A stretch of DNA of 40,286 bases from Sporichthya sp. GTDB lineage: Bacteria; Actinomycetota; Actinomycetes; Sporichthyales; Sporichthyaceae. Each line of letters starts with the position of its first letter. Position 1 is the first letter of the stretch. Both the position numbers and the translations under genes were made by a program. This document shows, in pieces, positions 8,349-28,227 of this stretch. The notes under the pieces are model-generated. The model did not search any database. It was not told where the DNA came from and saw only the letters and a list, made by a program, of their open reading frames with translations. The stretch is from the NCBI RefSeq assembly GCF_013815995.1, contig NZ_JACDFE010000008.1, forward strand, positions 1 through 40,286, written 5' to 3'.

Positions 8349-8593
8349 CCCTGCCGCTCCGCCTCGACGCCGTGGTCCTGCGTGAACCCCACGAGGTGCC
8401 GGGAGGCCGGCGTGTAGCCCTGCGTCCCGACCCAGCGGCACAGCTCGGGATCGGCGGTGCGCAGCTCGCCCGCCACCCAGGTGCCGCGGAAGTCGAAGAT
8501 CCCGCGCTGCTCGCCCTTGGCCACCTCGACGCGGCCGTCCTCCAGCCCGGTGTAGATCGCCCCGCTGAACGGGTGCTCAAGCCGGAACGCCAT
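8345..8593 (-). CDS. small hypothetical protein (82 aa) translationally coupled to the Rieske oxygenase
   Basis: MAFRLEHPFSGAIYTGLEDGRVEVAKGEQRGIFDFRGTWVAGELRTADPELCRWVG...; stop overlaps the Rieske ATG (ATGA). Confidence 0.6.
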   Translation of the reverse strand: MAFRLEHPFSGAIYTGLEDGRVEVAKGEQRGIFDFRGTWVAGELRTADPELCRWVGTQGYTPASRHLVGFTQDHGVEAERQG

Positions 8594-8687
8594 GCGAAAT
8601 AGTCTAGCCCTTGACCTTTCCTGCGGTCCCCCAGCAGATGTCACCGTTACAAGCTGGGACCAAGGTGTCCGTGAGACCCTGACGCCG

Positions 8688-9440: not shown

Positions 9441-9443
9441 CGG

Positions 9444-10115
9444 CTACTCGAGGCCGGCGCGCATCCCGTCCTGGGTCAGCTCCACCCACATCGCCCGGCC
9501 GCCGCGCTCGGTGTTGAAGGTGACGACGTACTTCTCGGCCGGCTCCAGGTTCAGCTCGCCGTTGCCGTGCCGCAGGCCCTGCTCGGCCCAGGCCGGCTCG
9601 CCTTCCTTCGGGTCGGTGCGGGTCCAGCCGTCCTTCTCCAGAATCTCGATCGCCTGCGCGCCGGTGATGTTCCGCCACAACGCGGAGACGCCGCCGAAGT
9701 CCGGGCCCTCCGCGGGGTCGCAGTGGAAGGTGTCGTCGGGGTGCATCGGCTCCACCTGGCGCAGCGCCTTGGCGGGGAACAGCGCAAGCACGTGCTTGTT
9801 GATCAACGCATTGGAAGCGGCCACCGCGAGCGCGCACTCCTGCTTGCCGGCCTTCGGCTGGTCGCTGGTCGGGTCCTTGCCCTTCCGCGGGTCGGTCGTG
9901 GCGATCGGCTTGGTGCCCGTGGCGGTGCCGTCCTTTCCGGACTCGGCCACCGTCTTCGCGTCGTCGGCGGGCCGGCCGGTGGTGCTATCGGCAGCCTTGT
10001 CAGCAGGCACGATGTCGACCCGGCCGTCGATCGCGGCCGGCTCCTCGTCGCCGGCGCAACCCCCCAGGGCAAGCACCAGTGCCGCGGCTCCGCACCCGAT
10101 CCGCCAGTTCCTCAT
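9444..10115 (-). CDS. hypothetical lipoprotein
   Basis: MRNWRIGCGAAALVLALGGCAGDEEPAA lipobox; 223 aa; no family recognised. Confidence 0.7.
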   Translation of the reverse strand: MRNWRIGCGAAALVLALGGCAGDEEPAAIDGRVDIVPADKAADSTTGRPADDAKTVAESGKDGTATGTKPIATTDPRKGKDPTSDQPKAGKQECALAVAASNALINKHVLALFPAKALRQVEPMHPDDTFHCDPAEGPDFGGVSALWRNITGAQAIEILEKDGWTRTDPKEGEPAWAEQGLRHGNGELNLEPAEKYVVTFNTERGGRAMWVELTQDGMRAGLE

Positions 10116-10160
10116 GTTCCTACTGTGCCGACAACAGCCCCCTGAAGCGGGGATGTCCGC

Positions 10161-10523
10161 CTAGAAACTGGCGTCGAGGAAGGCCGGAGTGCTGCGGTCG
10201 AGCGCGTGCGCCTGGATCCGCTCGGCGAGGCGGAGCTCCTGACGGGCGGCGGCGACGGCCCGGCTGAGGTCCTCGGCCAGGCGCAGCTGCCGGGCGGCGA
10301 TCGCCTCGGCGCGGGCGCGCAACCGCTCGGGCAGCGGACCGGACAGGGCCGGGGCGACCCAGTCCGGACGGGGCGCCACCGCGACCGCGGGCGTTCCGTC
10401 GGTCAGCAGCCGCTCGGCACGGGTGACGTCGAGCTCGAGCGTGATCAGCGCGTCGGCCCAGGCGGTCTCCCAGTCGGTCGCGAGCTGCTCGGGCGCGACC
10501 AGGCGCAGAGTGCGTTCGGCCAT
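10161..10523 (-). CDS. hypothetical, alpha-helical protein
   Basis: MAERTLRLVAPEQLATDWETAWADALITLELDVTRAERLL...; plausible coding composition; no family recognised. Confidence 0.5.
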   Translation of the reverse strand: MAERTLRLVAPEQLATDWETAWADALITLELDVTRAERLLTDGTPAVAVAPRPDWVAPALSGPLPERLRARAEAIAARQLRLAEDLSRAVAAARQELRLAERIQAHALDRSTPAFLDASF

Positions 10524-10687
10524 CACGTCCGCCTCAGCCCGCGCGCTCGACCGGGGCGGCCGCGACGGAGACCTCAAGGGCGGCGGCCCGCCAGGCTTCG
10601 GCGAGAGGCTCCACCAGGGCGCGGACCCCGGCGGTGCGCTCCGGATCGCCGGCGACGTTCGCGCGGACCCTGGTGGGGAGGTAAGCC

Positions 10688-11188
10688 ATGATCGGACGTG
10701 TCACCCAGCGCTCGATCGCGACGCACACGCTGATGGGTTTGCAGGGCAACCTGAGTCGGATGGCCGGCATCCAGCAGCAGCGCTCCAGCGGCAAGCAGAT
10801 CTCGCGGCCCTCGGACTCGCCGACCGGCACCGTCGCCGCGATGCAGATGCGTGGCGAGATCCGCGACAGGGCGCGGACATCTTCGGTGTGCTGACCGACA
10901 TCTCGACCGCGCTGCGCTCGGGCAACCGCGCCGCTCTGAACACCGGGCTGGGTGACCTCGACACCGCGATGAACCGGATCTCCGGCAAGCTCGCGGAGGT
11001 CGGCGCCGGCTACAACCGGCTTGAGCAGATGCAAAGTGCCGCCGACGACCGGGTGATCAGTTTGACGACCTCGTTGTCCGACGTCGAGGACATCGACCTG
11101 CCCGCAACCATCGTGGAGCTCAACTTGGCCCAGGTAGCCCAGCAGGCCGCGCTCGCCGCGACCGAGCGCGTGATCGCCCCCTTCGCTT
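10688..11188 (+). pseudogene. flgL: flagellar hook-associated protein FlgL, middle missing and frame broken
   Basis: N-terminus MIGRVTQRSIATHTLMGLQGNLSRMAGIQQQRSSGKQISRPSDSPTGTVAAMQMRGEIR in one frame; C-terminus DIFGVLTDISTALRSGNRAALNTGLGDLDTAMNRISGKLAEVGAGYNRLEQMQSAADDRVISLTTSLSDVEDIDLPATIVELNLAQVAQQAALAATERVI in another; central part absent. Confidence 0.82.
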
Positions 11189-11202
11189 GCGGACTTTCTC
11201 CG

Positions 11203-11628
11203 ATGAGCGCCGTGATCGAGGGCTCCGTCGGACAAGGGGAGCTGGAAACGGTGCCCGCGCTGGAGTTCGTCGGCCCGGTCGCCGGTTTCGCCGCGCTGTG
11301 TTCGTTCGTGCTCACCGAGATCGACCCCGCCTCGGTGGTGTGTGCGATGCGCTCACTGGAGGACCCCGAGGTGCGGTTCCTGGTGATGCCACCCGGACCG
11401 TTCTTCCCCGACTACGCGCCGGAGATCAGCGACGACTGGGCCGAGAGCCTTGGCTTGACCTGCGCCGAGGACGCGTTGGTGCTGGTCATCGTCAACCCCG
11501 GCACCTCGGTTGCCGACGCGACGGTGAACCTGCTCGCGCCCATCGTCATCAACACCGTCACCCTGCATGCCGCGCAGGTCGTCCTCGCCGAGGACCTGCC
11601 GCTGCGGGCACCCCTGCCGGTGAACTGA
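11203..11628 (+). CDS. fliW: FliW flagellar assembly factor
   Basis: MSAVIEG...FVLTEIDPASVVCAMRSLEDPEVRFLVMPPGPFFPDYAPEISDDWAESLGL...VNPGTSVADATVNLLAPIVINTVTLHAAQVVL. Confidence 0.85.
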   Translation: MSAVIEGSVGQGELETVPALEFVGPVAGFAALCSFVLTEIDPASVVCAMRSLEDPEVRFLVMPPGPFFPDYAPEISDDWAESLGLTCAEDALVLVIVNPGTSVADATVNLLAPIVINTVTLHAAQVVLAEDLPLRAPLPVN

Positions 11629-12136
11629 CGACCGGTGAACTGACGGCCTCCGCGATCTGTTCAGCGACCCGCTCGCCGTCCAGGTCGGTGGTGTCGACCG
11701 TCAGATCGGCGAGCTGCTCGAGCAGCGGGTACCGGTACTCGACCTGGGTGCGTAGCTGAGCTTCGACGTCGTCGTTCCACGGGCGACCGGAGCCTTCGGT
11801 CGCCCGGGCCGCGAGCGTCCGCGCGTCGGCGCGCAGCCACACCACGAACGCGCGCTCGGCCAACACGCGTCGGCAGGTCAGACTCTCCACCGTCGAGGCC
11901 GCGGCCGTGAGGACGCTGCGCTCCTCCGAGTTCAGCAGATCCAGCAGCACCGCGGCCTCGGCGGCGTGCAGGGCGTCCAGGCCGTTGCGGTCCTTGAGCT
12001 GCGCGGCACTGGCGCCGAACCGGGCCAGCAGCTCGCCGTCGTTGTCGCGGTAGGTCCACCCCAGCCGAAGCGCCAAGCGCTCGCCGACCGTCGTCTTCCC
12101 GCTGCCCATCAGCCCGAGCAAAGCGATCCGTTCCAT
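11558..12136 (-). CDS. shikimate kinase-like P-loop kinase
   Basis: MERIALLGLMGSGKTTVGERLALRLGWTYRDNDGELLARFG; 192 aa; 3' end runs antisense into fliW. Confidence 0.75.
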   Translation of the reverse strand: MERIALLGLMGSGKTTVGERLALRLGWTYRDNDGELLARFGASAAQLKDRNGLDALHAAEAAVLLDLLNSEERSVLTAAASTVESLTCRRVLAERAFVVWLRADARTLAARATEGSGRPWNDDVEAQLRTQVEYRYPLLEQLADLTVDTTDLDGERVAEQIAEAVSSPVVSSPAGVPAAAGPRRGRPARHAG

Positions 12137-12331
12137 GCCGGCGTTCTACCCGCGTCGGCCCCGCGTCACCCGGTCCGCTGGCACCGCCTCTGAAACGCAA
12201 CTGAGCGACAAGGTTGAGACGCGGGAGGTGCCTCGTCGGCCCCGGATCGCATCACACGTATCAACCCTGTCGCCCAGTGGTGCGAAGCCGGGCGAGCGCG
12301 TGCCGCACGGAGCGCCGGAGCGGGCTCCCCT

Positions 12332-12625
12332 ATGCTCGGCGGCACCGGCGCGGCTCAAGGAAGGGCCGCTGCCTCCCACGGAAGGTCGGCACGGCAGCGA
12401 ATCGGCAGTCTGGAGGAATCCCAGCGGGCCGTGCTGAACGTCCACGACAACGTGCTGCAGAACATCTTCGCCTCCGGCCTGATGCTCAGGACGACGCTGA
12501 ACACCGGTGCGCCCCCGGCTATCACCATGGAGCAGACGCTGGACCGGATGGACGACGCGGTGCGCGCCATCCGGCAGGTCGTCGAAGACCTCAACGACCA
12601 GCTCGACGCGAATCCAACGACCTAG
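12332..12625 (+). CDS. short orphan histidine-kinase dimerisation (DHp)-like protein without an ATPase domain
   Basis: ESQRAVLNVHDNVLQNIFASGLMLRTTLNT...TLDRMDDAVRAIRQVVEDLNDQL resembles HisKA_3 LHDxxxQ region; stop follows immediately. Confidence 0.5.
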   Translation: MLGGTGAAQGRAAASHGRSARQRIGSLEESQRAVLNVHDNVLQNIFASGLMLRTTLNTGAPPAITMEQTLDRMDDAVRAIRQVVEDLNDQLDANPTT

Positions 12626-12638
12626 GTCCGCACCGATC

Positions 12639-12652
12639 GGGACTCTTGGCCT
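12639..12652. promoter_or_regulatory. DosR-box-like site upstream of a receiver-only regulator
   Basis: gggactcttggcct; resembles DosR/DevR box core (GGGACTWWAGTCCC). Confidence 0.3.
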
Positions 12653-12719
12653 GTCCTGTCGTGGGTCTGCGCGACCGATGCACACGAGGTAAGGAAATCC
12701 GACCCGGGAGGCGGAGGTC

Positions 12720-13151
12720 ATGTTCAAGCAGCTTTGTCCCGAGACCGAACGGCTCGACCCGCTGCAGCTGCGTGCGACCTTCTGCCGGGTCCAGGTGTTG
12801 ATCGTCGACGACAGCGCACTGGTCCGCCGGTTGATCACCGCCCAGCTGGAGGGCACCGGTCGCTTCGACCTCGTGATGACGGCCGGCGACGGCAACGAGG
12901 CGATCGGCCTCGCCGAGTTGATGCAGCCCGACGTGGTCCTTCTCGATCTGTCGATGCCCTTCCTCGGTGGTCTCGAAGCCCTGCCGCTCGTGCTCTCCGT
13001 CGCCCCGCACGCGCGGGTGATCGTGATGTCCGGCTCGCCGTCGGACGAGATGGCGGTCCGCGCTCTGGCCGCGGGCGCAGTCGGCTATCTGGACAAGGGG
13101 CCGCAGCTGCACCTGCCGGCCGTCATCGACGCCGTTCTGGGCGCGGCCTGA
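12720..13151 (+). CDS. receiver-only (CheY-like) response regulator
   Basis: VQVLIVDDSALVRRLITAQLEG...DVVLLDLSMPFLGGLEALPL...VIVMSGSPSDEMAVRALAAGAVGYLDKG. Confidence 0.85.
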   Translation: MFKQLCPETERLDPLQLRATFCRVQVLIVDDSALVRRLITAQLEGTGRFDLVMTAGDGNEAIGLAELMQPDVVLLDLSMPFLGGLEALPLVLSVAPHARVIVMSGSPSDEMAVRALAAGAVGYLDKGPQLHLPAVIDAVLGAA

Positions 13152-13227
13152 GGGGTTTGTCCACAGGCCTCCCGCCGCCCCGCCGTTTCGGGGCAGACTC
13201 CTGCCTTCGCTGACATCGGGGGTGGCC

Positions 13228-13470
13228 ATGGAGCAGCACGATTTCGAGTTGCGGTTGGAGGGGACCGGCGAGGAACGCGGGGCCCTCCGGCTCGATGCGC
13301 TGAGTGAAATCTGCCCGGCGGCTGCAGGAGCTGTCGCGGCGGGTCGCGCGCCACGTCGCGGGCGGGCCGGAGGTCGGTCGCACGCCGGACCATCCGGCCG
13401 CGGTCGGTCGCCTTGTCCTGCGGGAATCCGGGCCGGCAGCGCTGCGGGCTTGTGGGCAGCGCCCTCCTGA
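13228..13470 (+). pseudogene. frameshifted remnant of an unknown gene
   Basis: MEQHDFELRLEGTGEERGALRLDALSEI in frame 1 appears to continue as ARRLQELSRRVARHVAGG in frame 2 after ~13310. Confidence 0.35.
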
Positions 13471-13672
13471 CTCCGGAGGGGTAGGCAGGAGGACGCCGCT
13501 GAGCGCTTACCTGTCGCCGGGAGGGGTGTCGCGCAGGCGGGCGCTGAAGGCGGCGAATGTCCGCCTTGTCGTAGGAGAGTTGGTGCCGCGTCGTCGAGGC
13601 CGGCCGCTTCGCGAGCGAGAGCCCTCGCCACTCCTGCTGCGGCCGGATCGGACGGGACTCGATGTCGGTGGG

Positions 13673-14065
13673 TCAGGCGCCGGGCGGGGCGAAGAACTCC
13701 AGCGGCAGGTTGTCGGGGTCGCGGAAGGACAGGCCGGACCCGTAGGGCGCGTCCACGATGCCACCGTGCTTGATGCCGAGGCCGTCGAGGTGCTTCTGCT
13801 GCAGCTCGAGGGCGGCGCGGTCGGGGCAGCCGAAGGCGAGGTGGTCGAGACCGACGCGACGCTCGTCGAACCGGGTCGCATCGGTCCCGCTGGGGAACTG
13901 GTGCAGACCGATCAACGTCCCGTCGATGGCCCAGACGACGTGCCGGAACGGGCCGGTGTCCTCGTCGAGGACCGGTTCGGCCCCGAACAGGGCGGTGTAC
14001 CAGGGGACGCTCACGGACAGGTCCCGGACGGTGAGAGCGACGTGGGTGATCGAGGGGAAGGACAT
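13673..14065 (-). CDS. VOC family (glyoxalase/bleomycin-resistance fold) protein
   Basis: MSFPSITHVALTVRDLSVSVPWYTALFGAEPV...GLDHLAFGCPDRAALELQQKHLDGLGIKHGGIVDAPYGSGLSFRDPDNLPLEFFAPPGA. Confidence 0.88.
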   Translation of the reverse strand: MSFPSITHVALTVRDLSVSVPWYTALFGAEPVLDEDTGPFRHVVWAIDGTLIGLHQFPSGTDATRFDERRVGLDHLAFGCPDRAALELQQKHLDGLGIKHGGIVDAPYGSGLSFRDPDNLPLEFFAPPGA

Positions 14066-14178
14066 AGTAGGGCTCCTGAGGTGTCGGGGTCGCTTGGCAG
14101 TTCGACCTTTACCCCTGCACCCGGCCATGATCAAGTGCAGGTTCAATACCGACCCGCCCAGATTCTGGGCTGGGCACC

Positions 14179-14600
14179 TCACCGTCCGGGCAGCGCCGGC
14201 ACCTTGTGTGTCCCCACGGCCGAGCCGCGGGCCTTCAGCGACAGCACGAACGCCAGCACCTGCGCGACGGCGGCGAACAGCTCGCCGGGGATCTCCTGCT
14301 CCACCTCGCACGCCTTGTAGAGCGCCCGGGCCAGCGCGACGTCGGAGACCATGGGCACCCGGTGCTTGGCGGCCTCCTCGCGGATCCAGGTCGCCACGTG
14401 ACCTGAACCCTCGCACGACGTCGCCGTTGGCGATCTTGCTCATCATCCGGTTGCGGCTCATCGCATCTGCTTGGACCGGATCGCGCCCTTGAGGGGGTTC
14501 ATCCCCTTCCACTACGGCTTGAGGTTCTTCGTCGCCAGGTGCACCCCCCTGCGCCGCCGAGGTGATGAAGGTGACCACAGCCAGGCTCCTTCTGGCCCGG
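14179..14600 (-). pseudogene. flhB: FlhB (flagellar export switch) remnant with frameshift, in-frame stop and internal deletions
   Basis: Pieces in order but different frames: LAVVTFITSAAQG / VHLATKNLKP*WKGMNPLKGAIRSKQM / AMSRNRMMSKIANGDVV / VATWIREEAAKHRVPMVSDVALARALYKACEVEQEIPGELFAAVAQVLAFVLSLKARGSA. Confidence 0.82.
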
Positions 14601-14655
14601 AGTTGAGGACCAACGGCCAGGTCGATAAGAGGACCGAAAAGTCATCGGTGGGGAC

Positions 14656-14669
14656 GGGACCTTCGACCC
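14656..14669. promoter_or_regulatory. DosR-box-like site
   Basis: gggaccttcgaccc. Confidence 0.25.
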
Positions 14670-14914
14670 TGGGAGGGCCTTGCGGCCTCGGCTTCACTCG
14701 AATGGCGGTCGACGGCACCCGACCGCCGCTCACTCTGGCGGGTGAGAGAAGAGGTTGCGCGAGGGCCCGGATCGCTGCGGTCGATCCGGGCCCTCACGTC
14801 ATAACGGCCGCCACGTCAGCAGCCGGCGCGCCGCCTTCCCTGGCCGATTCACGCCTTGCGGCCCGGTCCGAACGGGGGCGCGACCTCCTTGCGCTGATCA
14901 CCGGCGGAATGACA

Positions 14915-14977
14915 GACCCGGCGGACCCGGCGGACCCGGCGGACCCGGCGGACCCGGCGGACCCGGCGGACCCGGCG
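14915..14977. repeat. 9-bp tandem repeat, 7 perfect copies
   Basis: (gacccggcg)x7 in a non-coding interval. Confidence 0.95.
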
Positions 14978-15014
14978 GTTGGGCGGGAATGGCCCGACCC
15001 GGCTATGAATCCGG

Positions 15015-16151
15015 CTAGACCTGCCCCGGTGGCCCTGCTGCGACGCCGGCCGATGCCCAACGGTCGAAGGCCGCGCGGAGCTGTCTCACCCGGTCGCGGC
15101 TGCCGTCGAGTGAACCGGCTGCGGCCAGGAACTCCAGCTCCCGCGAGATCGACTCCATCCTCAGTGCCCCGACACTTGCGGCGGCGCCCTTGATCGCGTG
15201 CGCAAGCCGGGTGACCTCCTGGGCATCGCCGGTGCCGATCGCGGCCTGAAGGTGGGTCAACCGGTCCTGGGCATGTACCCGGAAGCCTTCCAGGATTGAG
15301 GCGACGGCCGCGGGTCCGATCCGGCCGATGAGGGTGGAGAGCGCCTCCTGGTCCACGTCGTGCCCGGGATCGGTGATCTCGTCGGGTTGCTCGCGCCGTG
15401 GCCGGGCGGCATGGCGGGCCAGCGCAGCATCCAGATCGGACAACACGAGGGGCATGGACAGGTGGTCGGTCAACCCCGCCGCCAGCCAGGACTCCCGCCC
15501 ACGTCCGAGATCGCCGGACATCACGATCACCGGCAGGGGGCGGTGCTCACCGGCCCGGCGCTGCAGCTGCGCGGCCACCTCGGCCGCGGTCAGGTTGGGC
15601 AACTGATCGGCGAGCAGGACGGCCGCGTACCTGCGGGTCCCGGCCAGGGCCACCCCGATGCTTCCGTCGGCGGCCACGTCGGCGCGGTATCCGAGCCACT
15701 CGAGCAGATGCCGGACGAGTTCCTGGTCGTCGCGATCGGGGTCGATGACGAGAATCGGCGGTTGTTCTGGTGACTGGCCGTCGGAGGTGTCGCCGAGGGC
15801 CTCGCGCAGACGGGCCGGCAACGAGCCCGCCCGGAGATGCTTTTCCACGAAGCCGCACGCGCCCAGCGCGCCCGCGGTCCTGGAGAACTCTCGTCGGCCG
15901 AACCCGGACAACACCACAACCTGGGTGGAGGGCGAGGCGGCCAGGATCAGCGGGAGGGCTTCCAACCCACCCATGCCGGGCATCGCCAGATCGAGCAGCA
16001 TCACCTCGGGCCGGTAATGGCCGGCGATCTCGATGGCTTCCTTTCCGTCGGCGCCCTCGGCGCAGACCTCGAAGCCGCGGTCGCGCTCAAGCTCCGCGCG
16101 CCACAGGGATCGGACGTCTTCGGAGTCGTCGATGATCGCGACTTTTCGCAT
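15015..16151 (-). CDS. REC-REC-HPt phosphorelay protein
   Basis: MRKVAIIDDSEDVRSLWRAEL...VMLLDLAMPGMGGLEALPL; second receiver-like ILVIDPDRDDQELVRHLLEWLGY...AAVLLADQLPNLTAAE; C-terminal HPt LAHAIKGAAASVGALRMESISRELE; start ATG 16151. Confidence 0.85.
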   Translation of the reverse strand: MRKVAIIDDSEDVRSLWRAELERDRGFEVCAEGADGKEAIEIAGHYRPEVMLLDLAMPGMGGLEALPLILAASPSTQVVVLSGFGRREFSRTAGALGACGFVEKHLRAGSLPARLREALGDTSDGQSPEQPPILVIDPDRDDQELVRHLLEWLGYRADVAADGSIGVALAGTRRYAAVLLADQLPNLTAAEVAAQLQRRAGEHRPLPVIVMSGDLGRGRESWLAAGLTDHLSMPLVLSDLDAALARHAARPRREQPDEITDPGHDVDQEALSTLIGRIGPAAVASILEGFRVHAQDRLTHLQAAIGTGDAQEVTRLAHAIKGAAASVGALRMESISRELEFLAAAGSLDGSRDRVRQLRAAFDRWASAGVAAGPPGQV

Positions 16152-16221
16152 GGCGTCTCCTTTCGGCGAGCTCAGGAGTCCCGCCATCGGCAGGATCGGT
16201 CGGCACGAGCGCGCCTGTGAG

Positions 16222-16235
16222 GGGGCATTGGTCCT
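16222..16235. promoter_or_regulatory. weak DosR-box-like site in a divergent promoter
   Basis: ggggcattggtcct. Confidence 0.25.
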
Positions 16236-16264
16236 GACAGGCATCGAAGGAGCGGGACGAGGAC

Positions 16265-16279
16265 GGGACCTTCGGTCCT
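16265..16279. promoter_or_regulatory. DosR-box-like palindromic site between REC-REC-HPt and PAS-GGDEF genes
   Basis: gggaccttcggtcct, containing ggacc-ttc-ggtcc. Confidence 0.35.
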
Positions 16280-16289
16280 CGATGCGGGC

Positions 16290-17291
16290 GTGCCCATGGC
16301 CGACAACACGGACATCAGCGCAATTCGGTCCCGAACCCTCAACAACGAACGAGGAACAATGACGAGTGCCGGCCAGATCGACGGCGGTGTCGAGCAGGCC
16401 CTGTTGCGGTCGGTACTCGACAACGTTCCCGCGCCGATCGCCTACTGGGACCGCGCCCGACGCAACGTGGTGGCCAATCGCGCCTATCTCGACTGGTTCG
16501 GCAGAACGCCGGAGCAGGCCCGAGGCCTGCATATCCGCGAGGTGCTCGGGGAGGTGCTCTACCGGCGGAGCCGGCCGCACATCGACGGCGTCCTGGCCGG
16601 GGTGGCCCAACAGTTCGACCGCACCGTCGTTGATCCGTCGGGCCGGGTGCGGCATTCGCAGACGTCGTATGTCCCGGACCTGGACCAGGACGGCGCGGTG
16701 CGAGGCTTCTACTCCCTGGTCAGCGACGTCACGGCTCGCGTTCACGCCGAGGCCGATGCGGCGACGATGCGGCTCGACCTCACGTCGAAGGCGACCACCG
16801 ATCCGCTGACCGGGCTGGCCAACCGCCGCGAACTTACTCGGCGGGGAACTGCGGCGTTGGCGGAATGCGCTGCGGGGGGCGGCCCGCTCGCCCTGCTCGT
16901 CCTGGACCTGGACGGCTTCAAGGCGGTCAACGATGCCTGGGGTCACGCCGCGGGTGACGCCGTGCTGGTGCAGATCGCGGGCCGACTCACTGCGAGCCTT
17001 CGTCCGACCGACCTGGTGGCCCGCGTGGGCGGGGACGAGTTCGTGGTGGTGATACCCCACATCGGATCCGCCGCCGCCGCGTCCCGGGTCGCGGACCGGT
17101 TGATCGCGGCGGTGCGTACACCCGTCGCCCTGGGCTCCTGCCCATCCGGACCGATCTCCCTCGGGGTCAGCGTCGGCGTGGTCGTGGTCGGTCCAGGTCC
17201 CGGGCAGGCCAGCCTGGATCAGCTGATGGCGGAGGCCGACCGCCGGATGTACTGCGCCAAACGTGAGGGTGGCGCGCGCTGGTCGGGCTGA
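16290..17291 (+). CDS. PAS-GGDEF diguanylate cyclase
   Basis: PAS-like LLRSVLDNVPAPIAYWDRARRNVVANRAYLDWFGRTPEQARG; ATTDPLTGLANRRELTRRG; canonical RVGGDEFVVVIP; start GTG 16290 or a later ATG. Confidence 0.88.
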   Translation: MPMADNTDISAIRSRTLNNERGTMTSAGQIDGGVEQALLRSVLDNVPAPIAYWDRARRNVVANRAYLDWFGRTPEQARGLHIREVLGEVLYRRSRPHIDGVLAGVAQQFDRTVVDPSGRVRHSQTSYVPDLDQDGAVRGFYSLVSDVTARVHAEADAATMRLDLTSKATTDPLTGLANRRELTRRGTAALAECAAGGGPLALLVLDLDGFKAVNDAWGHAAGDAVLVQIAGRLTASLRPTDLVARVGGDEFVVVIPHIGSAAAASRVADRLIAAVRTPVALGSCPSGPISLGVSVGVVVVGPGPGQASLDQLMAEADRRMYCAKREGGARWSG

Positions 17292-17307
17292 ATCTGATCC
17301 CAGTCGG

Positions 17308-17327
17308 TTCGGGACTTTGGTCCAGTC
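17308..17327. promoter_or_regulatory. DosR/DevR-box candidate
   Basis: ttcgggactttggtccagtc; 16/20 to TTSGGGACTWWAGTCCCSAA by eye. Confidence 0.45.
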
Positions 17328-17429
17328 ATCCTCGCCGGATGACGAGCCGATGAGATCAACACGGGCGCCGAAGCGCCGGTCTCGCCTCATCGTAGGCAGC
17401 AACGCTCTCGACCCGCTTGGGGTGGCGGA

Positions 17430-17705
17430 ATGAAGTACGCGGTGCGCGTTCTCTCGGGAGCGGTGCTGGGCGTTGGCCTTGCCGTCCTCGTCGGCTGGTA
17501 CTTCCACCTGGACACCTTGACCTCCCTGGTACCGGGCTACGCCTCGATGAAGCCGAACACGGCGCTCGGACTGGCGGTGCTGGCGGGCGGGGACATCTGG
17601 TACGAAGCGAACCGGCCGTCCGGGGCCTGCTTCGCCGTTCGGCTGCCCGTCGCTCGCGAGCCCGTTTCCCTGCCCCGGGCCCGGCGTGAAGGAGCAACGA
17701 GGTGA
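17430..17705 (+). pseudogene. sensor histidine kinase reduced to its N-terminal membrane segment and C-terminal ATPase tail
   Basis: N-part VLVGWYFHLDTLTSLVPGYASMKPNTALGLAVLAG joined in frame to GGDIWYEANRPSGACFAVRLPVARE (end of HATPase_c); kinase core missing. Confidence 0.65.
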
Positions 17706-19482
17706 ACCCGCTTCCTGTGGCGGAGTCCGTCGGTGACCTGCCTGGAGCGTGCCCGGGCCAGGCCGCGGCCGACGCGGCGCTGGCGGCTGCGTTGCCGATG
17801 TTGGCCGAGCTTTCCGGCGCGACCACTGTGCTGGTGGTTCGCCCGCGCGGCGAGGGCGAGATTGTCGCGATGCGCGTGGGGCCCGACCTGGACCCCGACG
17901 CACTGGCGAGTGGCCGGACCGCCACCCGGCCGTTGCCCGGCAATGCGGGTGACGTGGTCGCGGCCTGGGTCCACGAACCGGACGAGCCGTGCCTGATCCG
18001 GCTGGAGCTGGCGCTGACCATCGTCACCGAACGCCTCGCCCGTCTGAACGCCGAGGACCAGCTCATGGATCTGACGGCACGTATGAACAGCGCCCAGCAG
18101 CTGGCCAACATGGGCGACTACGACTGGCACATCGCCAGCGACACCAACCGGTGGTCGGATCAGCTCTACCGCATCTACGGCCATGAGCCGCAGTCGTTCA
18201 ACCCCTCCTACGAACTCTTCCTGGCCCACATCCATCCGGAGGACCGGGACCGGGTCGCGGCGGTCCACCAGCACGCCTATGCCACCGGCGAGCCGTACGA
18301 GATGGTCGAGCGCGTTGTCCGGCCGGACGGTGGGGTCCGCTACCTGTCGTCCAACGGCCAGGTCGTCCTCGACGAAGCCGGCCGGCCCACCCGGATGCGG
18401 GGCACCTGCATCGACATCACCGACCGGGTCCTGGCCGAGCAGGCCCGCGAACGCATCGCGGCCCGCTTTCGCCACATGGTCGATTCGTGTCCCGACGCGA
18501 TCCTGGTGCTCGATGTCCAGGGCCGGATCGTGCAGGGCAACCGCCGCGCCCACGACCTTCTGGGTGGCGACCCCACCGGCAGGAGAGTCGAGGAGATCGC
18601 ACGCGGGCTGCGCGTCGACGGCCAGGGGATCGAGGCCCTGGGCCTCGACGGTCGGCCGCTGAGACTTGACGTGATCACCGCCGAGCTCAGCGGGTCGACG
18701 GGGAATTCCTGCTCGCGGTCTACCTTCGCGACGCGTGCGTCCGCCTCGCCAACGAAGCACATGCCGCCGCCCTCCGGGAGGTCCAGGTGCGCCACCGCCA
18801 GGCGCTGGAGATCAACGACGACGTCGTACAGGGGCTGACGGCCGCGGTCCTGGCCATGCAGCAGGGAGACCTCGCGGGGTCCACGTCCTATCTGGAACGG
18901 ACGTTGTCGGCCGCTCGCCGGCTGATGAATGGTTGGTCGCAGCCGAGTGGAGACCACCCGCTCCTACCGGGAGATCTGGTACGCACGCTCGCCTCATCGC
19001 TCCACGGCCCAGCGGCTGCAGCCGTCACCAATAGTCCCCCCGGGTCGGTGGCGCCGGGGTCGGCGCCCACGATCCTGGTGGTGGACGACAGCAGCGACGT
19101 CCGAACACTGCTGTGCGCCCAGCTGAGATCCATGGGGAAGTACGAGATCGTCGGACAGGCAGCCGACGGCAAGGAGGCGGTCCGCCTGGCCGCATCCCTG
19201 CAGCCTCAGGTAGTCCTCTTGGACCTTTCGATGCCTGAGATGGACGGCTTGCAGGCGCTCCCGTTGATCCTTGAGGTCGCGGCCGGCGTCCGAGTCATCG
19301 TGATGTCCGGTTTCGATCAGCGCCGCGTGGGTGCTCAGGCGTTGGCCGCCGGCGCGGTTCGCTACATCGAGAAGGGCTTGCGCATGGACCTGGCCACCGT
19401 GATCGACGAAGTCCTGGCGGTGGCGGAGGCGCCCTCCGTCCGGGTTTCCGGGGCGCCGGCGCAGCTACGGTGGTCCACTTAG
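17702..19482 (+). pseudogene. PAS-PAS-DHp(degenerate)-REC hybrid protein interrupted by a 1-nt frameshift near 18692-18694
   Basis: ORF 17702..18838 (GDYDWHIASDTNRWSDQLYRIYGHEPQSFNPSYELFLAHIHPEDRDRV; second PAS) continues in frame 1 as VDGEFLLAVYLRDACVRLANEAHAAALREVQVRHRQALEINDDVVQGLTAAVLAMQQGD and a receiver ILVVDDSSDVRTLLCAQLRS. Confidence 0.8.
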
Positions 19483-19595
19483 GGCGTTTCGGCCGCGAAT
19501 ACCTCGAGTTGGTCGTCGCGGATGCCGAAGATCCAAGGAATGCACGGGCATCGAAGTCGGCGCCCGAGCCATGACGGGGAAAGGAATCCGTACAA

Positions 19596-20264
19596 GTGGA
19601 CACCTCCGAGCAACTGTCGGGCGACGCCAGCCCCATCACCGTCTTCCTGCTGGACGACCACGAGATCGTCCGGCGCGGCGTGGCCGACCTGTTGAACTCC
19701 GCCCCCGACATCACCGTGGTCGGCGAAGCCGGCACCGCCGCGCAGGCGCTGGTCCGCATCCCCGCCCTCAAGCCGCAGGTCGCGGTCCTGGACGCCCGGC
19801 TGCCCGACGGCAGCGGCATCGACGTCTGTCGTGACATCCGCTCGGCCATGCCCGAGGTGCGCTGCCTGATCCTGACCAGTTACGACGACAACGACGCGAT
19901 CTTCGCCGCCGTGATGGGCGGCGCGGCCGGCTATCTGCTCAAGGAGATCCGCGGGACCAACCTGCTGGACGCGATCCGCCAGGTCGCCGCCGGCAAGTCC
20001 CTGCTGGACCCCTCCGTCACCGAGCGGCTGCTGGCCCGGCTGCGTGACGGCGCCCCGACCGACCCGCGAATGGCCTCGCTGTCCGAGCGGGAGCGGGAGA
20101 TTCTCACCCTGATCGCCGACGGCCTGACCAACCGGCAAATCGGCGAGCGCCTCTTCCTGGCCGAGAAGACCGTGAAGAACTACGTCTCCGCGCTGCTGGC
20201 CAAGCTCGGCATGGAGCGGCGCACCCAGGCCGCGGTCTACGCCGCGGAGCTTCGCAAGTCGTAG
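19596..20264 (+). CDS. NarL/FixJ-family response regulator, DosR/DevR-like
   Basis: FLLDDHEIVRRGVADLLNSAPDITVVGEAGTAAQALVRIPALKPQVAVLDARLPDGSGIDVCRDIRSAMPEVRCLILTSYDDNDAIFAAVMGGAAGYLLKEI; HTH FLAEKTVKNYVSALLAKLGMERRTQAAVYAAELRKS, very like mycobacterial DosR as recalled. Confidence 0.88.
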   Translation: MDTSEQLSGDASPITVFLLDDHEIVRRGVADLLNSAPDITVVGEAGTAAQALVRIPALKPQVAVLDARLPDGSGIDVCRDIRSAMPEVRCLILTSYDDNDAIFAAVMGGAAGYLLKEIRGTNLLDAIRQVAAGKSLLDPSVTERLLARLRDGAPTDPRMASLSEREREILTLIADGLTNRQIGERLFLAEKTVKNYVSALLAKLGMERRTQAAVYAAELRKS

Positions 20265-20289
20265 CCCGGGAATAGCGCGGCAGCTACTA

Positions 20290-20301
20290 TTGTCCGTACA
20301 A
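20290..20301. promoter_or_regulatory. putative GntR operator upstream of the MBL-rhodanese gene
   Basis: ttgtccgtacaa, reverse complement of the site at 37778-37789. Confidence 0.65.
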
Positions 20302-20339
20302 ATGGCGCGCAGCTGACGCCAGATGTCCGGGAGGCCTGC

Positions 20340-21725
20340 ATGATCCTCGACCAGTACTACCTCTCCTGCCTGTCGCAGGCGTCGTACCTGGTCGCCGACC
20401 CGGGCTCGCGCCGGGCGGCGGTGATCGACCCGCGCCGAGACGTCAAGGAGTACCTGACCGACGCCGAGGCGCAGGGCCTGAGCATCGAGCTCGTCATCCT
20501 CACCCACGTGCACGCCGACTTCATCCCCGGCCACACCGAGTTGGCCGAGCGCACCGGCGCCGAGATCGCGATGGGCGAGGTCGCGCCGGTGCAGTTCCCG
20601 ATCCGCCGCCTGCGCGACGGCGAGCGCATCACCCTCGGCGACCCGGAGACCGGCGTCGTCCTCGAGGTCCTGGCCACCCCGGGCCACACGCCGGAGTCGA
20701 TCACCCTGGCCATCTACGAACACGGCTCCGATCCGGCGCCGCACTCGATCCTCACCGGCGACACCCTCTTCCTCGGCGACGTCGGCCGTCCCGACCTGCT
20801 CGGCGCCGCCGGCCGCACCTCGGCGGAGATGGCGCGCGAGTTGTTTCAATCGTTGCGCGGCAAGATCCTGCCGCTGCCCGACGAGGTGCTGGTCTACCCC
20901 GGTCACGGTGCGGGCAGCGCGTGCGGCAAGGCGCTCTCGACCGACACCGTCTCGACTCTCGGCGACCAGCGCCGCACCAACTACGCGCTGGCCCCGATGA
21001 GCGAGGACGATTTCGTCGCCGTCGTCACCGACGGGCTGGGCGCGCCACCGGCGTACTTCGCCGACGAGGTGGCGGTGAACAAGGTCGGTCACGTGCCGTT
21101 CGACGAGGATCAGCCGGTGCCCCGGACCGACGGCACCACCGCGGTCCGGCGCCAACAGGCCGGCTACCTGCTGCTCGACGTCCGCGACGACCAGGCTTTC
21201 GCCGCCGGGCACCTGAAGGGCTCGGTGAACGTCGGGCTGTCCGGCCGGTTCGCCGAGTACGCCGCCGCGCTGCATGCCCCGGAGCAGCCGGTGATCCTGG
21301 TCGGCTCCGACGAGCAGAACGCCGAGGCGCGGCTGCGGCTGGCCCGGGTGGGCGTGGACCAGGTGACCGCCCAGGTGAACGAGAGCATCCTGGTCGAGAG
21401 TCCCGAGCTGGTCGTCGCTTCCAGTCGTCTGACGGCCAGTCAGGCCGCGGAGGCGATCAAGTCCACGCCCGACCTGCAGGTCGTCGACGTGCGCGGGCCG
21501 GGGGAGCACAAGGCCGGCGCGCTGCCCGGCGCGGTCAACCTGTGCGTGACCCGATTGCGCACCACGCTCGACCAGCTGGACCCGGCCAAGCCGGTGCTCG
21601 TGCACTGCGCCGGCGGCTATCGCTCGATGGCGGCCGCCAGCCTGCTCGAGGCCAATGGCTTCCACGACGTCTCCGACGTCCTCGGCGGCTACACCGCCTG
21701 GGCTGCGGACCCCTCCGCCGCCTAG
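20340..21725 (+). CDS. MBL-fold / double rhodanese protein (CstB/persulfide-dioxygenase-like)
   Basis: MBL motif ILTHVHADFIPGHTELA, TGDTLFLGDVGRPDL, VYPGHGAGSACGK; two rhodanese-like modules, the second with VHCAGGYRSMAAASLL active-site Cys. Confidence 0.85.
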   Translation: MILDQYYLSCLSQASYLVADPGSRRAAVIDPRRDVKEYLTDAEAQGLSIELVILTHVHADFIPGHTELAERTGAEIAMGEVAPVQFPIRRLRDGERITLGDPETGVVLEVLATPGHTPESITLAIYEHGSDPAPHSILTGDTLFLGDVGRPDLLGAAGRTSAEMARELFQSLRGKILPLPDEVLVYPGHGAGSACGKALSTDTVSTLGDQRRTNYALAPMSEDDFVAVVTDGLGAPPAYFADEVAVNKVGHVPFDEDQPVPRTDGTTAVRRQQAGYLLLDVRDDQAFAAGHLKGSVNVGLSGRFAEYAAALHAPEQPVILVGSDEQNAEARLRLARVGVDQVTAQVNESILVESPELVVASSRLTASQAAEAIKSTPDLQVVDVRGPGEHKAGALPGAVNLCVTRLRTTLDQLDPAKPVLVHCAGGYRSMAAASLLEANGFHDVSDVLGGYTAWAADPSAA

Positions 21726-21733
21726 GCGGAGCC

Positions 21734-21761
21734 TCACCCGCGCAGGCGAATCGAGGGGTGA
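21734..21761. promoter_or_regulatory. inverted-repeat motif upstream of NarL-type regulator
   Basis: tcaccc-N14-aggggtga. Confidence 0.35.
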
Positions 21762-21811
21762 ACCCGCGCTCGCCCACTGGCGGGCGCCCGGCGCCGCCGT
21801 AGCCTGAGGAG

Positions 21812-22504
21812 ATGACGTCGCCAGTGCACTCCCAGGGTTCTCGGCCGGCGACCTGCCCGATGCGGCTCGTCCTCGTCGACGACCACCAGATGGTGCTGCA
21901 CGGGCTGACGGCGATGCTCGCCCACTTCGACGACGCGGTCGCCATTGTCGGCACGGCTACCTCCTACGATGCCGCCCTGCTGGTCGCCGCGCAGACCGAC
22001 CCCGACATCGTGCTGTGTGACGTCCGGCTGGCCGGCGCGAGCGGCATTGATCTGTGCCAGGCGATCTCCGGACTGCACCCGGAGATCAAGGTCGTGCTCC
22101 TGACGGTCTACGACGACGAGCACTACCTCTTTCAGGCGCTGCGCGTAGGTGCGGCGGGATACATCCTCAAGCGGGTCGATGCGGCCGAACTGGTCGCACA
22201 GCTGCGCCGCGCGCGCGAAGGGGAGATCGTAGTGGACCCCGCCCTGGCCGGGCGGGTCGCGCTCTCGGCGGCCCGGATCCACGCCGGCGAGGTCTGGCCG
22301 GGCGCGCACCTGGGGTTGACTCACCGCGAATCCGAGGTGCTGGCCCTGCTGGTCTCCGGACACTCGAACAAGGGCGTCGCGGCCAAGCTGGTGGTCAGCG
22401 AGGACACCGTGAAAACCCACATCCGCGGGCTCTATCGCAAGCTCGGGGTGAGCGATCGCAGCGGGGCGGTCTCGGTCGCCCTGCGCGAGGGCGTCTTCCA
22501 ATGA
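21812..22504 (+). CDS. NarL/FixJ-family response regulator
   Basis: MRLVLVDDHQMVLHGLTAMLAHFDDAVAIVG...DIVLCDVRLAGASGIDLCQAI...; LuxR HTH LTHRESEVLALLVSGHSNKGVAAKLVVSEDTVKTHIRGLYRKLGV. Confidence 0.9.
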   Translation: MTSPVHSQGSRPATCPMRLVLVDDHQMVLHGLTAMLAHFDDAVAIVGTATSYDAALLVAAQTDPDIVLCDVRLAGASGIDLCQAISGLHPEIKVVLLTVYDDEHYLFQALRVGAAGYILKRVDAAELVAQLRRAREGEIVVDPALAGRVALSAARIHAGEVWPGAHLGLTHRESEVLALLVSGHSNKGVAAKLVVSEDTVKTHIRGLYRKLGVSDRSGAVSVALREGVFQ

Positions 22505-23634
22505 CGGAGGTGACGGATGCGGCGGGCCTCGCCGCCCGCCTCGGCGCGGACGCGGTCGTGATCTTCGGCGGTGACGGCGACGACCTGTTCGTGGCCGACG
22601 CAGCCCCGGGCGACCCGAGGCTGGCCGAGGCGCTTCGCATTCCGATCGGGTTCGGCGTGACGGGACGGGTTGCGAGCACCGGCCGCCCGGTCCGTATCGA
22701 TCGGGACTCTCCACGCAATGCGCTGCACCGTCAGCTGATCGGGCTGGCCGACGGCGATCCGATCAGCCGGGTGTGTGCCCCGATCCCCGGCCTCTACGGC
22801 GAGATCGTCGGCGTGCTGGCCGGGTACCGGTCGGTCGATCGGCCGTTCACCGAGCCGGAGCTGGGCACCGCGAGCGAGCTCGCCTCGTCGCTCGGCCTGC
22901 GCATGCACACCGAGCAACTGTGGCTCGCGGTCCGCCGGTACCGCGATGATCGGGACCTGCTCATCGCCCAGGCGATCGAGGCCCAGGAAGGCGAGCGTCG
23001 GCGCATCGCGTTCGACCTGCATGACGGGGTCATCACCGTGCTGGCCTCGACGGCGTTCCACCTCAACGCCGCCGCGCTGGCGGTGTCGGGTCCGGGGGAC
23101 GCATCGGCCGCGCTGGCCCAGATCGCCGAGGCCCGGCACCTCGCTGATCTGGCCTACCACCAGACCCGGGCGGCGGTCACCGGCTTGCACAGCCTCGTGC
23201 TGGACGACCTCGGTCTGGTCGCGGCCCTGGAATCGCTGGTGCGGACGGTGGGCCCGGCCGGGGGCACCGAGGTCGAGCTGCTGGCGGACCCGGCCCAGGC
23301 GCTCGGCGAGATTCCAGATCATGCGGCCTCCGCGTTGTACCGCATCGCCCAGGAGGCCCTCGGCAATGCGATCCAGCACTCCGGAGCCTCCCGGATCCTG
23401 CTCTCCCTGCAGCGAGTACCTGGCGCGCTGGTCCTGGCCTGCACCGACGACGGCACCGGGTTCGATCCGGTCGAGCGCAAGGCGGCCCGCGCTGCCGATG
23501 CCGACCCCGCCCGCCAGCACTTCGGGCTGTCCTCGATGGAGCAGCGCTGTGCGCTGCTCGGCGCCGATCTGCGTCTGGAGTCGGCTCCCGGTCGGGGCAC
23601 CCGCGTCATCATCGAGGTGCCGCTCGCGGGTTAG
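22501..23634 (+). CDS. GAF-type sensor histidine kinase (HisKA_3/HATPase)
   Basis: ATG overlaps regulator stop (ATGA); EGERRRIAFDLHDGVITVLASTAFHLNAAAL; ALYRIAQEALGNAIQHSGA; CTDDGTGFDP; FGLSSMEQRC. Confidence 0.9.
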   Translation: MTEVTDAAGLAARLGADAVVIFGGDGDDLFVADAAPGDPRLAEALRIPIGFGVTGRVASTGRPVRIDRDSPRNALHRQLIGLADGDPISRVCAPIPGLYGEIVGVLAGYRSVDRPFTEPELGTASELASSLGLRMHTEQLWLAVRRYRDDRDLLIAQAIEAQEGERRRIAFDLHDGVITVLASTAFHLNAAALAVSGPGDASAALAQIAEARHLADLAYHQTRAAVTGLHSLVLDDLGLVAALESLVRTVGPAGGTEVELLADPAQALGEIPDHAASALYRIAQEALGNAIQHSGASRILLSLQRVPGALVLACTDDGTGFDPVERKAARAADADPARQHFGLSSMEQRCALLGADLRLESAPGRGTRVIIEVPLAG

Positions 23635-24509
23635 GGCAGGACAGCGCGCCGTTGCTCCATCAGGCGCAGGATCATCGGCGTGAAGATGAGTTGCATGGCC
23701 AGCTCCATCTTCCCGCCGGGGGCCACGATCACATTGGGCCGGGACATGAACGAGCCGTTCAACATCGAGAGCAGGTAGGGGAAGTCGATCTCTCGCGGTT
23801 CGCGGAAGCGGATCACCAGGAAGCTCTCGTCCGCGGCCGGGATGTGCCGCGCGATGAACGGGTTGGACGTGTCCACCGTCGGCACCCGCTGGAAGTTGAC
23901 ATGGGTGCGCGAGAACTGCGGACACATGTAGTTGAGGTAGTCGGGCATCCGTCGGAGGATCGTGTCCACCACCGTCTCGTTCGAGTAACCGCGGGTGGTC
24001 TTGTCCCGGTGCAGCTTCTGGATCCACTCCAGGTTGATGATCGGCACGACGCCGATCAGCAGGTCAGCGTGCTGGGCCACGTTGACCTCGTCGGTGACGA
24101 CAGCGCCGTGCAGCCCCTCGTAGAACAGCAGGTCGGTACCGTCGGGGACGTCCTCCCAGTCGGTGAACGTGCCGGGTTCCTGCCCGTAGGGCGCGGCCTC
24201 CGCCTCATCGTGCAGGTACCTCCGGGTTCGGCCGGTCCCGGTCTCGCCGTAGGCCAGGAAGAGCTCGGCGAGCTCCGCGAACAGGTTGGAACCCGGGCCG
24301 AAGTGGGAGAAGTGGTTGTTGCCCTGGCCGGCCGCTTCGGCCGACTCCTTCGCCATCTCCGCACGGTCGTACCGGTGGAAGGCGTCGCCCTCGACCACAG
24401 CGGCGGTGACGCCCTCGCGCCGGAAGATCTGCTGCACGGTGCGCGTGACCGAGGTCGTCCCGGCTCCGGAGGAACCGGTGATCGCGATCACCGGGTGTCG
24501 GATCGACAT
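23631..24509 (-). CDS. prk: phosphoribulokinase (bacterial class I type)
   Basis: MSIRHPVIAITGSSGAGTTSVTRTVQQIFRREGVTAAVVEGDAFHRYDRAEM...DLLFYEGLHGAVV...IINLEWIQKLHRDKTTRGYSNETVVDTILRRMPDYLNYMCPQFSRTHVNFQRVPTVDTSNPF. Confidence 0.95.
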   Translation of the reverse strand: MSIRHPVIAITGSSGAGTTSVTRTVQQIFRREGVTAAVVEGDAFHRYDRAEMAKESAEAAGQGNNHFSHFGPGSNLFAELAELFLAYGETGTGRTRRYLHDEAEAAPYGQEPGTFTDWEDVPDGTDLLFYEGLHGAVVTDEVNVAQHADLLIGVVPIINLEWIQKLHRDKTTRGYSNETVVDTILRRMPDYLNYMCPQFSRTHVNFQRVPTVDTSNPFIARHIPAADESFLVIRFREPREIDFPYLLSMLNGSFMSRPNVIVAPGGKMELAMQLIFTPMILRLMEQRRAVLP

Positions 24510-24514
24510 GGGCC

Positions 24515-25576
24515 CTAGACCCGGAAAAGGGATCGGTTGTTGAACAGGGAGAAGTCCTCGGCCGACCCGCTGAGGTCCTCGCGGTGGTATCGCTCGATGC
24601 GGTCCACCTCGGCGCTCGAGCCGAAGATGAACGGGATCCGCTGGTGCAGCGCGCCTGGTTGCACGTCGAGCACGCGGCCCCGCCCGGTGCTGGCCGATCC
24701 GCCGGCCTGCTCGACGATGAACGAGATCGGACTGCACTCGTACAACAGCCGCAGCCGTCCAGCCGAGCGGGCGTCCTTGCTGTCGGCCGGGTAGAGGAAG
24801 ACCCCGCCCCGGGTCAGGATCCGGAACGTCTCCGCGACCAGCGAGGCGACCCACCGCATGTTGAAGTCCCGCTCCCGCGGGCCCGCCCGGCCGACCAGGC
24901 ACTCGGCCACGTAGCGGCGCACGGGGGGCTCCCAGAACCGCTCGTTGGAGGTGTTGATCGCGAACTCGGACGTGTGCTCGGGAATCCGGATCTGAGGGTG
25001 AGTCAGGATGAAGGTGCCCAGCTCGCGGTCGAGGGTGTAGCCGTCCACCCCGGACCCGGTAGTCAGGATCAGCATGGTCGCCGGTCCGTACAGGGCGAAG
25101 CCGGCACAGACCTGCTCGGTGCCCGGCTGGAGGAAATCCGCCAGGGCCGGCTCGGCGCCGGGGTTCGGGGTCCGCAGGATCGAGAAGATGGTGCCGGTCG
25201 GGATGTTCGCGTCGATGTTGCTCGACCCGTCCAACGGGTCGAACACCAGCAGGTACTGCCCACGCCGGAAGCGCGTCGGCACCGGATAGAACGTCGCCAG
25301 CTCCTCAGACACCATCCCGGCCAGGTACCCGCCCCACTGCGTTTCGGCGATCATGATCTCGTTGCTCAGCACGTCCAGGCGTGCCTGCGCCTCGCCCTGG
25401 ACGTTGAGGGTTCCCGCCGCGCCGAGCGACCCGCCAAGCGCCCCCTTGTTGACCTGCAGGGCGATCGCCTGCACCGCGATGGTGATCGCCTGCAGCAGGC
25501 CGGCGAAGTCGCCGGGCGAGCCCGGACCGTCGGGCCCGACCAGCTCCTCGAGCGCCGGCGCGGCGACGCTAGGCAT
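24515..25576 (-). CDS. fbp: class I fructose-1,6-bisphosphatase
   Basis: LLVFDPLDGSSNIDANIPTGTIFSI; GTFILTHPQIRIPEHTSEFAINTSNERFWEPPVRRYV; RLRLLYECSPISFIVEQAGGSASTGRGRVLDVQPGALHQRIPFIFGS. Confidence 0.95.
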   Translation of the reverse strand: MPSVAAPALEELVGPDGPGSPGDFAGLLQAITIAVQAIALQVNKGALGGSLGAAGTLNVQGEAQARLDVLSNEIMIAETQWGGYLAGMVSEELATFYPVPTRFRRGQYLLVFDPLDGSSNIDANIPTGTIFSILRTPNPGAEPALADFLQPGTEQVCAGFALYGPATMLILTTGSGVDGYTLDRELGTFILTHPQIRIPEHTSEFAINTSNERFWEPPVRRYVAECLVGRAGPRERDFNMRWVASLVAETFRILTRGGVFLYPADSKDARSAGRLRLLYECSPISFIVEQAGGSASTGRGRVLDVQPGALHQRIPFIFGSSAEVDRIERYHREDLSGSAEDFSLFNNRSLFRV

Positions 25577-26616
25577 GGGCGGACACCAGACGCGACCCGT
25601 CGGCAGTCATCTCGGGGACGGTCGTGGTGCCGGTCGCGGCGGCGGCCCGGGCGCAGTTGGCCGCCAGCGCCGACTGGGCCGCCGGCACCGCAGCCGGATC
25701 GCCATGCCACGTGAGCAGCGCGTCGTTCACCAGAGCCCGGCCGAAGGAGAACGACAGCCGCCACGTCGTGTCGTTGCGGTCGGCGGCCTCCGCGGTAATG
25801 GCGGTCAGGTTGGCGCAGGCGCGCTCATTGCTCTGTCCGCCGGAGAGGGAAAACGACGCCCGGCACGGCGGCCGGCACCGCGCCCCGCAGCACCCGGACC
25901 GTGCGCGCGGCGATGTCCTCGGGAGTCGACTCCTCCTCGTTGTCGGCGAAGCCCGCGACCACCATGTTGGTCTTGAGTACCAGAGCCTGCGGATCGACGC
26001 CCATCAGGGCCAGGTGCTTGAACACGTTGGTGAGGACATTGGAGGTGACCGCCTGGCACAACGCGATCTCGTGCGCCCCGTCCATCAGGATCTCGGGCTC
26101 GACGATCGGGACCAGCCCGCACTCCTGGCACAGTGCCGCGAAGCGGGCCAGTGAATGCGCGTTGGCCCGCACGGCGCGCTTGCTCAAGCCGTTGGGGTCG
26201 AACACTGCGCGCCACTTCGCGAAGGTGGCCCCCAGTTCGCGGTACTCCAGCAAGCGCGGACGCAGGCCGTCGAGCCCCTCGGTCACCATCCCGCCGTTGG
26301 CGAACGGGAGGGGGGACGTCCCGGTATCCACCTTGATGCCGAGCCGGATGCCGCGTCCGGCGGCAGCGACCGGGAACGGCGTGCCGTCCGCCAGCGTCTG
26401 GCGCAGCGTCTCGTCGCAGACGATCATCCCGGAGATCCAGGCGGACAGCCGGGGTGTGGTGAGCAGCAGTTCGCGGTAGTCCCCCCGGGACTTCGCGGTC
26501 GCTGGCACCCCGGCCGCCGCCAGCCTCTTCGACATCGTGGCAACGCTCTCGTCCGCAGCCAGGATCCCCGCACCGGGGCGGACCAGATCAAGGGCGGTGT
26601 TCGGCAAGTTCGTCAT
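25569..26616 (-). pseudogene. class I fructose-bisphosphate aldolase, frameshifted by one extra base near 25847-25849
   Basis: ORF 25825..26616 MTNLPNTALDLVRPGAGILAADESVATMSKRLAAAGV...IVEPEILMDGAHEI...VLKTNMVVAGF; reading ends GVVFPLRRTEQ*; removing one C restores GVVFLSGGQSNERACANLTAITAEAADRNDTTWRLSFSFGRALVNDALLTWHGDP... to a stop at 25569. Confidence 0.88.

Positions 26617-26766: not shown

Positions 26767-28227
<1,461 letters not shown>

Follow-up and report, generated by a model that had tools for sequence, protein, structure and literature searches.

Is the 91-residue product (MKYAVRVLSGAVLGVGLAVLVGWYFHLDTLTSLVPGYASMKPNTALGLAVLAGGDIWYEANRPSGACFAVRLPVAREPVSLPRARREGATR) of a short open reading frame (ORF) in Sporichthya a small membrane protein in its own right, or is it what remains of a histidine kinase? 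The first-pass annotation of the window (the whole stretch of DNA analysed here, 40,286 bp, which is the complete contig C9 of a 4.5 Mb draft genome) had described the ORF (Table 1) as a sensor kinase reduced, in frame, to its two ends, and had offered both a decaying kinase and a new small membrane protein as readings.

Table 1. Positions of the ORF, its parts and neighbouring features in the window
Feature	Position	Strand	Basis or remark
FlgL relic: 60 aa of the N-terminus and, after a gap of 377 bp, 104 aa of the C-terminus run into FliW	10688..11628	+	Congener comparison, Pfam
Membrane-DHp protein of the genus: last 77 aa left, membrane domain lost; congener frames 402/380 aa	12332..12625	+	Congener comparison
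FlhB C-terminal stub	14182..14439	-	Congener comparison
Upstream PAS-GGDEF gene, intact	16290..17291	+	Domain content
DosR-type box TTCGGGACTTTGGTCCAGTC	17308..17327	+	16/20 to TTSGGGACTWWAGTCCCSAA; best match of the contig
Probable collapsed sensor-kinase relic	17430..17705	+	91-aa ORF, GTGA overlap with next gene
N-terminal half (aa 1-53): first TM helix (~aa 7-24), PG.x.MKPNTA loop, second helix start; belongs to a MASE-like membrane sensor domain that Pfam does not model	17430..17588	+	Sequence matches
Junction zone GLAVLAG	17565..17590	+	Residues fit both parents; full kinases carry at least ~450 additional codons here
C-terminal half (aa 47-79): last HATPase_c strands (GLAVLAGGDIWYEANRPSGACFAVRLPVAREPV)	17568..17666	+	Alignments to kinase ends
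Next gene, PAS-PAS-degenerate DHp-REC, frameshift-split	17702..19482	+	Comparison with intact congener orthologue
DosR-like NarL/LuxR response regulator, intact	19596..20264	+	94% aa identity to G001

When the entire ORF was compared to 395 genomes of the class, good matches spanned either approximately the first 55 or approximately the last 40 residues, and no convincing relative matched it as a unit. Searched separately, each half found real homologues, in different parts of long proteins. The C-terminal half matched the ends of full histidine kinases (tblastn E values of 8e-10 and 9e-8 per genome); GLARAAGGDAWYEPNTPAGSAFAVALPLPKEAV from L073 and GLARAAGGDAWYMPNRPTGSVFGVRLPSA from L074 show 60-66% identity to GLAVLAGGDIWYEANRPSGACFAVRLPVA in ungapped alignments. 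Kinases of this type (HisKA-HATPase_c), with the C-terminal pattern GLARAAGGDAWYxPNxPxGSxFxVxLP, differ from the ORF in having another N-terminal membrane region and a full catalytic core. The N-terminal half matched the beginnings of long proteins, and a profile built from eight such starts, with invariant G, W, M and A, found matches in 16 more genomes out of 397 from the phylum (best E value 1.7e-19, then 4.4e-16 and weaker). For both halves, the E values rule out chance similarity. The claim that kinase ends are joined in frame is thus supported, each half being homologous to full-length kinases; the N-terminal membrane helix lies at approximately residues 7-24, and the stretch quoted for it, SLVPGYASMKPNTALGLAVLAG, is in fact the loop that follows and the beginning of helix two.

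The multi-helix membrane domain to which the N-terminal half belongs had no match in Pfam or NCBIfam. It is found together with HisKA/HATPase_c in single proteins (L101, L102, L105, L111, L112, L114, L117 and L077), and it also starts GGDEF or GGDEF/EAL proteins (L116, L115 and, by sequence, L072), the STAS protein L107 and, by sequence, the PP2C protein L078. This unmodelled MASE-like domain, with approximately three GW..PG.x.MK.NTA-type repeats, occurs in L101-L117, L072 and L075-L079, and is common to histidine kinases, GGDEF/EAL, PP2C and STAS proteins. Only the first repeat of the L101-L117 type is present in the 91 residues.

The MASE-like kinases L105 (630 aa), L111 (569 aa) and L117 (563 aa) carry the first helix, the PG.x.MK.NTA loop and the final HATPase_c strands as in the ORF, which, compared to them, is devoid of the rest of the membrane domain, the DHp domain and most of HATPase_c. 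In full kinases the two ends lie at least ~450 residues apart (85 to ~540 in L117, 111 to ~587 in L105). Since the GLAVLAG residues are compatible with both parents, the join can be placed no more finely than the junction zone. The 91 residues matched nothing in Pfam or the PDB: HisKA was not found, the DHp domain with its phospho-acceptor histidine is absent, and HATPase_c was not detected even at an E value of 1. Alignments indicate that the N, G1 and G2 boxes of HATPase_c are missing and that only the final strands after GG are left; no catalytic residue remains, nor does any defining feature of a working kinase. A single-sequence AlphaFold2 model, which constitutes weak evidence, displays N-terminal helices and an unstructured tail, with a mean pLDDT of 56.6 and values of about 41-49 in the C-terminal half, which is predicted to be disordered; this is as expected of fragments. 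If translated, the product would span the membrane once, end in a disordered tail and have no phosphoryl-transfer core.

Two genes, rather than one, could have contributed these ends, if a single deletion fused the N-terminal half of one gene (for example, that of a membrane-domain GGDEF or DHp protein) to the C-terminal half of a downstream kinase. Signalling genes are commonly adjacent in the region, the best N-terminal matches in the class lie in GGDEF/EAL proteins as well as in kinases, and the best C-terminal matches, L073 and L074, are kinases with a different N-terminus. We nevertheless consider such a fusion distinctly improbable, since many genomes hold single proteins that carry both ends, and one gene is therefore the simpler source. 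Searches of the genus gave no full-length orthologous kinase; the deletion is thus not seen directly, and we infer, rather than observe, that both halves stem from one kinase and not from two neighbouring genes.

A conserved standalone family, the outcome that the first-pass annotation had named as contradicting its interpretation, did not appear: no short form was found in the 395 genomes of the class and 397 of the phylum (~790 in total), nor in the genus. In plasmid records only HATPase ends were recovered, with no match to the N-terminal half, and a scan of named genomes yielded merely three HATPase ends. In its own genome, no second match to the N-terminal half was found, a profile search for the remaining part of the membrane domain detected no trace, and the DNA of the junction region is unique; the latter is absent from both congeners, which have the membrane domain in a protein with frames of 402 and 380 aa. 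We considered the N-terminal half as the displaced start of this membrane-DHp protein of the genus, and rejected it: the stub at 12332-12625 is ~71% identical to its orthologue, while the N-terminal half is only ~40% identical to the orthologue's start. The ORF matches two distant regions of longer proteins, lacks what lies between them and has a short form that is not conserved, as in a deletion pseudogene, and it is most likely not a new kind of protein.

The surroundings of the ORF point in the same direction. BLASTN of window positions 5-25 kb against the congeners G001 and G002, followed by local refinement, showed collinearity with G001:C7:289-338 kb and G002:C1:985-936 kb; the two congeners are ~92% identical to each other across the whole stretch (55 kb). 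Their locus encodes FliD, flagellin, FliA, FlgL, FliW, AroK, CsrA, CheY/CheB/CheW/CheA and a membrane-DHp protein with REC, and onward FlhF, FlhA, FlhB, FliR/Q/P, MotA/B, FlgE/D, FliI/G/F, FlgB/C and then the DosR-like regulator (FlhA, CheA, FlhB, flagellin and FlgL were assigned by Pfam, the other genes by sequence and order). Within the congeners' chemotaxis cluster (L011/L121:6477-7682, L122:7662-8801), a membrane sensor with a HisKA_3-like helix (VHDDVLQSLFASGLMLRTAL) and no ATPase lies beside a REC gene.

In the window, this flagellar/chemotaxis locus is cut by six or more deletions, ranging in size from 63 bp to 17.5 kb, with overlaps of 0-5 nt at the junctions. Relative to the congeners, a 6.1-kb stretch is gone at 10669, flgL has lost 377 bp at 10868, and 10.9 kb are absent between 12130 and 12386. 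Further on, the window lacks most of a 5.4-kb stretch between 13151 and 14181, 63 bp of flhB at 14413-14419, and 17.5 kb between 14494 and 14652. The remnants comprise the stubs of Table 1 and a REC gene, with aroK (shikimate kinase, 11558-12136) intact between two deletions; apart from the stubs, the congeners' CheB-to-MotA DNA (CheA, FlhA, FlhB) has no full counterpart in the genome. The coding fraction of 10.6-19.6 kb (0.573) is below that of all 54 other 9-kb pieces of the same genome (0.628-0.997) and gene lengths are normal elsewhere, so that the decay is local. The pN/pS values of the stubs (0.23-0.52) are ordinary when compared to those of intact genes (0.13-0.76), indicating either that decay is recent or that an assembly effect is involved. 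The FlgL and FlhB stubs, internally deleted pseudogenes of the same contig, resemble the ORF in being truncated, once-full genes, cleanly joined, in a locus that the lineage has lost; the ORF differs in that its join is in frame, which leaves an open reading frame.

The segment at 14.8-19.6 kb, which holds the ORF, is absent as a whole from the congeners' locus, and no intact orthologue is present at this position. It contains a REC-REC-HPT gene (-), the PAS-GGDEF gene, the ORF and the PAS-PAS-DHp-REC gene. Compared to an intact 509-aa orthologue elsewhere in G002, the latter is broken in two by a frameshift of 1 nt near 18690-18710. In its product (window 17702-19482; L039:7760-9289), N replaces the phospho-acceptor H of the DHp-like helix (EINDD[VI]VQGLTAAVLAMQ), a feature kept in the congener orthologue; the protein is a degenerate DHp fused to a receiver, with no ATPase. 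The REC-REC-HPT protein adjoining the ORF (window 15018-16148, -) is without a kinase core. With truncated genes throughout the surrounding 9 kb and the next gene frameshifted, it is the decaying kinase, of the two initial options, that is favoured.

Window positions 21728-29964 (~8.2 kb) stand where the congeners have ~0.1 kb, and part of this segment (from 21849) matches contig C11 of G001, indicating rearrangement. The end of contig C3 (G000:C3:8043-11042, L165) corresponds to sequence ~1.8 kb beyond the collinear block in G002; the left border of the block (window 6985) is thus also a rearrangement or an assembly break.

An intact kinase could also merely look collapsed, through an assembly or consensus error in which the draft joins across unassembled DNA. 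The assembly consists of 383 contigs at 94.6% completeness, and 480 kb of it contain no N, so that gaps could have been silently closed; the contig carries several clean junctions with overlaps of 0-5 nt, and by pN/pS the stubs look unaged. We nevertheless regard such an error as unlikely. The losses are functionally coherent, affecting flagella and chemotaxis while sparing aroK, a gene of an essential pathway, between two of them, the missing DNA is on no other contig, and elsewhere the assembly shows normal gene lengths and coding density; moreover, k-mer collapse would not be expected to give zero-overlap joins. A genome-wide sequence error is ruled out by the normal gene lengths elsewhere. 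A BLASTN control with other contigs of the same genome against 400 kb of G002 offered too little collinear sequence for a deletion count. The deletion behind the ORF is thus presumably biological, and it reads best as recent.

The TGA of the ORF (17703-17705) shares GTGA with the GTG of the next gene (17702-17704), confirming the overlap that had been noted, and AAGGAG (17689-17694) provides a good ribosome site ahead of this GTG; for the ORF itself the site is less clear. Third-position G+C is 0.85, within the range of the signalling neighbours (0.83-0.88), and most genes of the contig have higher values. As a possible duplication scar we considered an imperfect direct repeat of 32 nt on either side of the ORF (17398-17429 / 17693-17724, 24/32), and set it aside, since 7 of 133 background pieces of the window hold a repeat that is as good or better.

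The DosR-box candidate reported upstream was located 103 nt from the ATG. By comparison with the published consensus TTSGGGACTWWAGTCCCSAA (PMC2275270), a 16/20 match is expected about once per 20 simulated contigs (about 0.05 per window). In its own genome, the candidate box alone fits a relaxed pattern exactly, the pattern having been loosened after the site was seen; with two mismatches allowed, a reversed control gave as many matches, with no genome-wide excess. In G002, the orthologue of the PAS-REC gene has a 15/20 DosR-type box directly upstream, and the candidate box more probably serves the transcription unit of the PAS-REC gene than the 91-aa ORF.

Could the ends of the kinase have become a functional small membrane protein, perhaps a DosR-controlled regulator or decoy subunit? 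The open frame, the GTGA coupling, the contig's best DosR-type box and a DosR-like regulator 1.9 kb downstream would suit such a role. It is, however, very improbable: ~790 genomes hold no standalone homologue, none of the conserved ATPase boxes survives in the tail apart from the final strands, the fold is of low confidence, the start-site context is weak and the next gene, the would-be partner, is frameshifted. The small-protein option is left unsupported by these searches and by the predicted disorder of the C-terminal part. A more specific version, in which a newborn, DosR-controlled single-pass membrane peptide arose by in-frame deletion of a kinase and was kept for coupling to, or modulating, the PAS-REC protein, appears extremely unlikely.

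Taken together, these data suggest that the ORF is probably a non-functional relic of a membrane-anchored histidine kinase gene that lost its middle by one deletion, the frame being kept by chance, in a segment under dismantling. The ancestor would have encoded a MASE-like sensor, DHp and HATPase_c; one deletion would have taken the middle of the kinase, with ends that happened to preserve the frame, and the stub would then have been left between the promoter and the next gene. The surrounding chromosome segment would be under dismantling in this lineage, with several separate deletions in the neighbouring flagellar/chemotaxis locus and a frameshift in the next gene. The kept frame and the intact GTGA overlap count against a relic, as they would be expected of a functional gene too. 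We infer that the product does nothing; the ORF might have no role left beyond coupling the translation of the next gene through GTGA.

For annotation, the ORF, as a relic, is a caution that a small ORF that is open, coupled and promoter-bearing can be an in-frame deletion scar. For the organism, the reduction of the flagellar/chemotaxis locus to stubs (window 6990-21728, mainly 10600-14800) probably reflects recent loss of motility, and an actinobacterial-type lineage losing the whole of this locus through several deletions on either side of an intact aroK would offer a modest, checkable case of such a loss.
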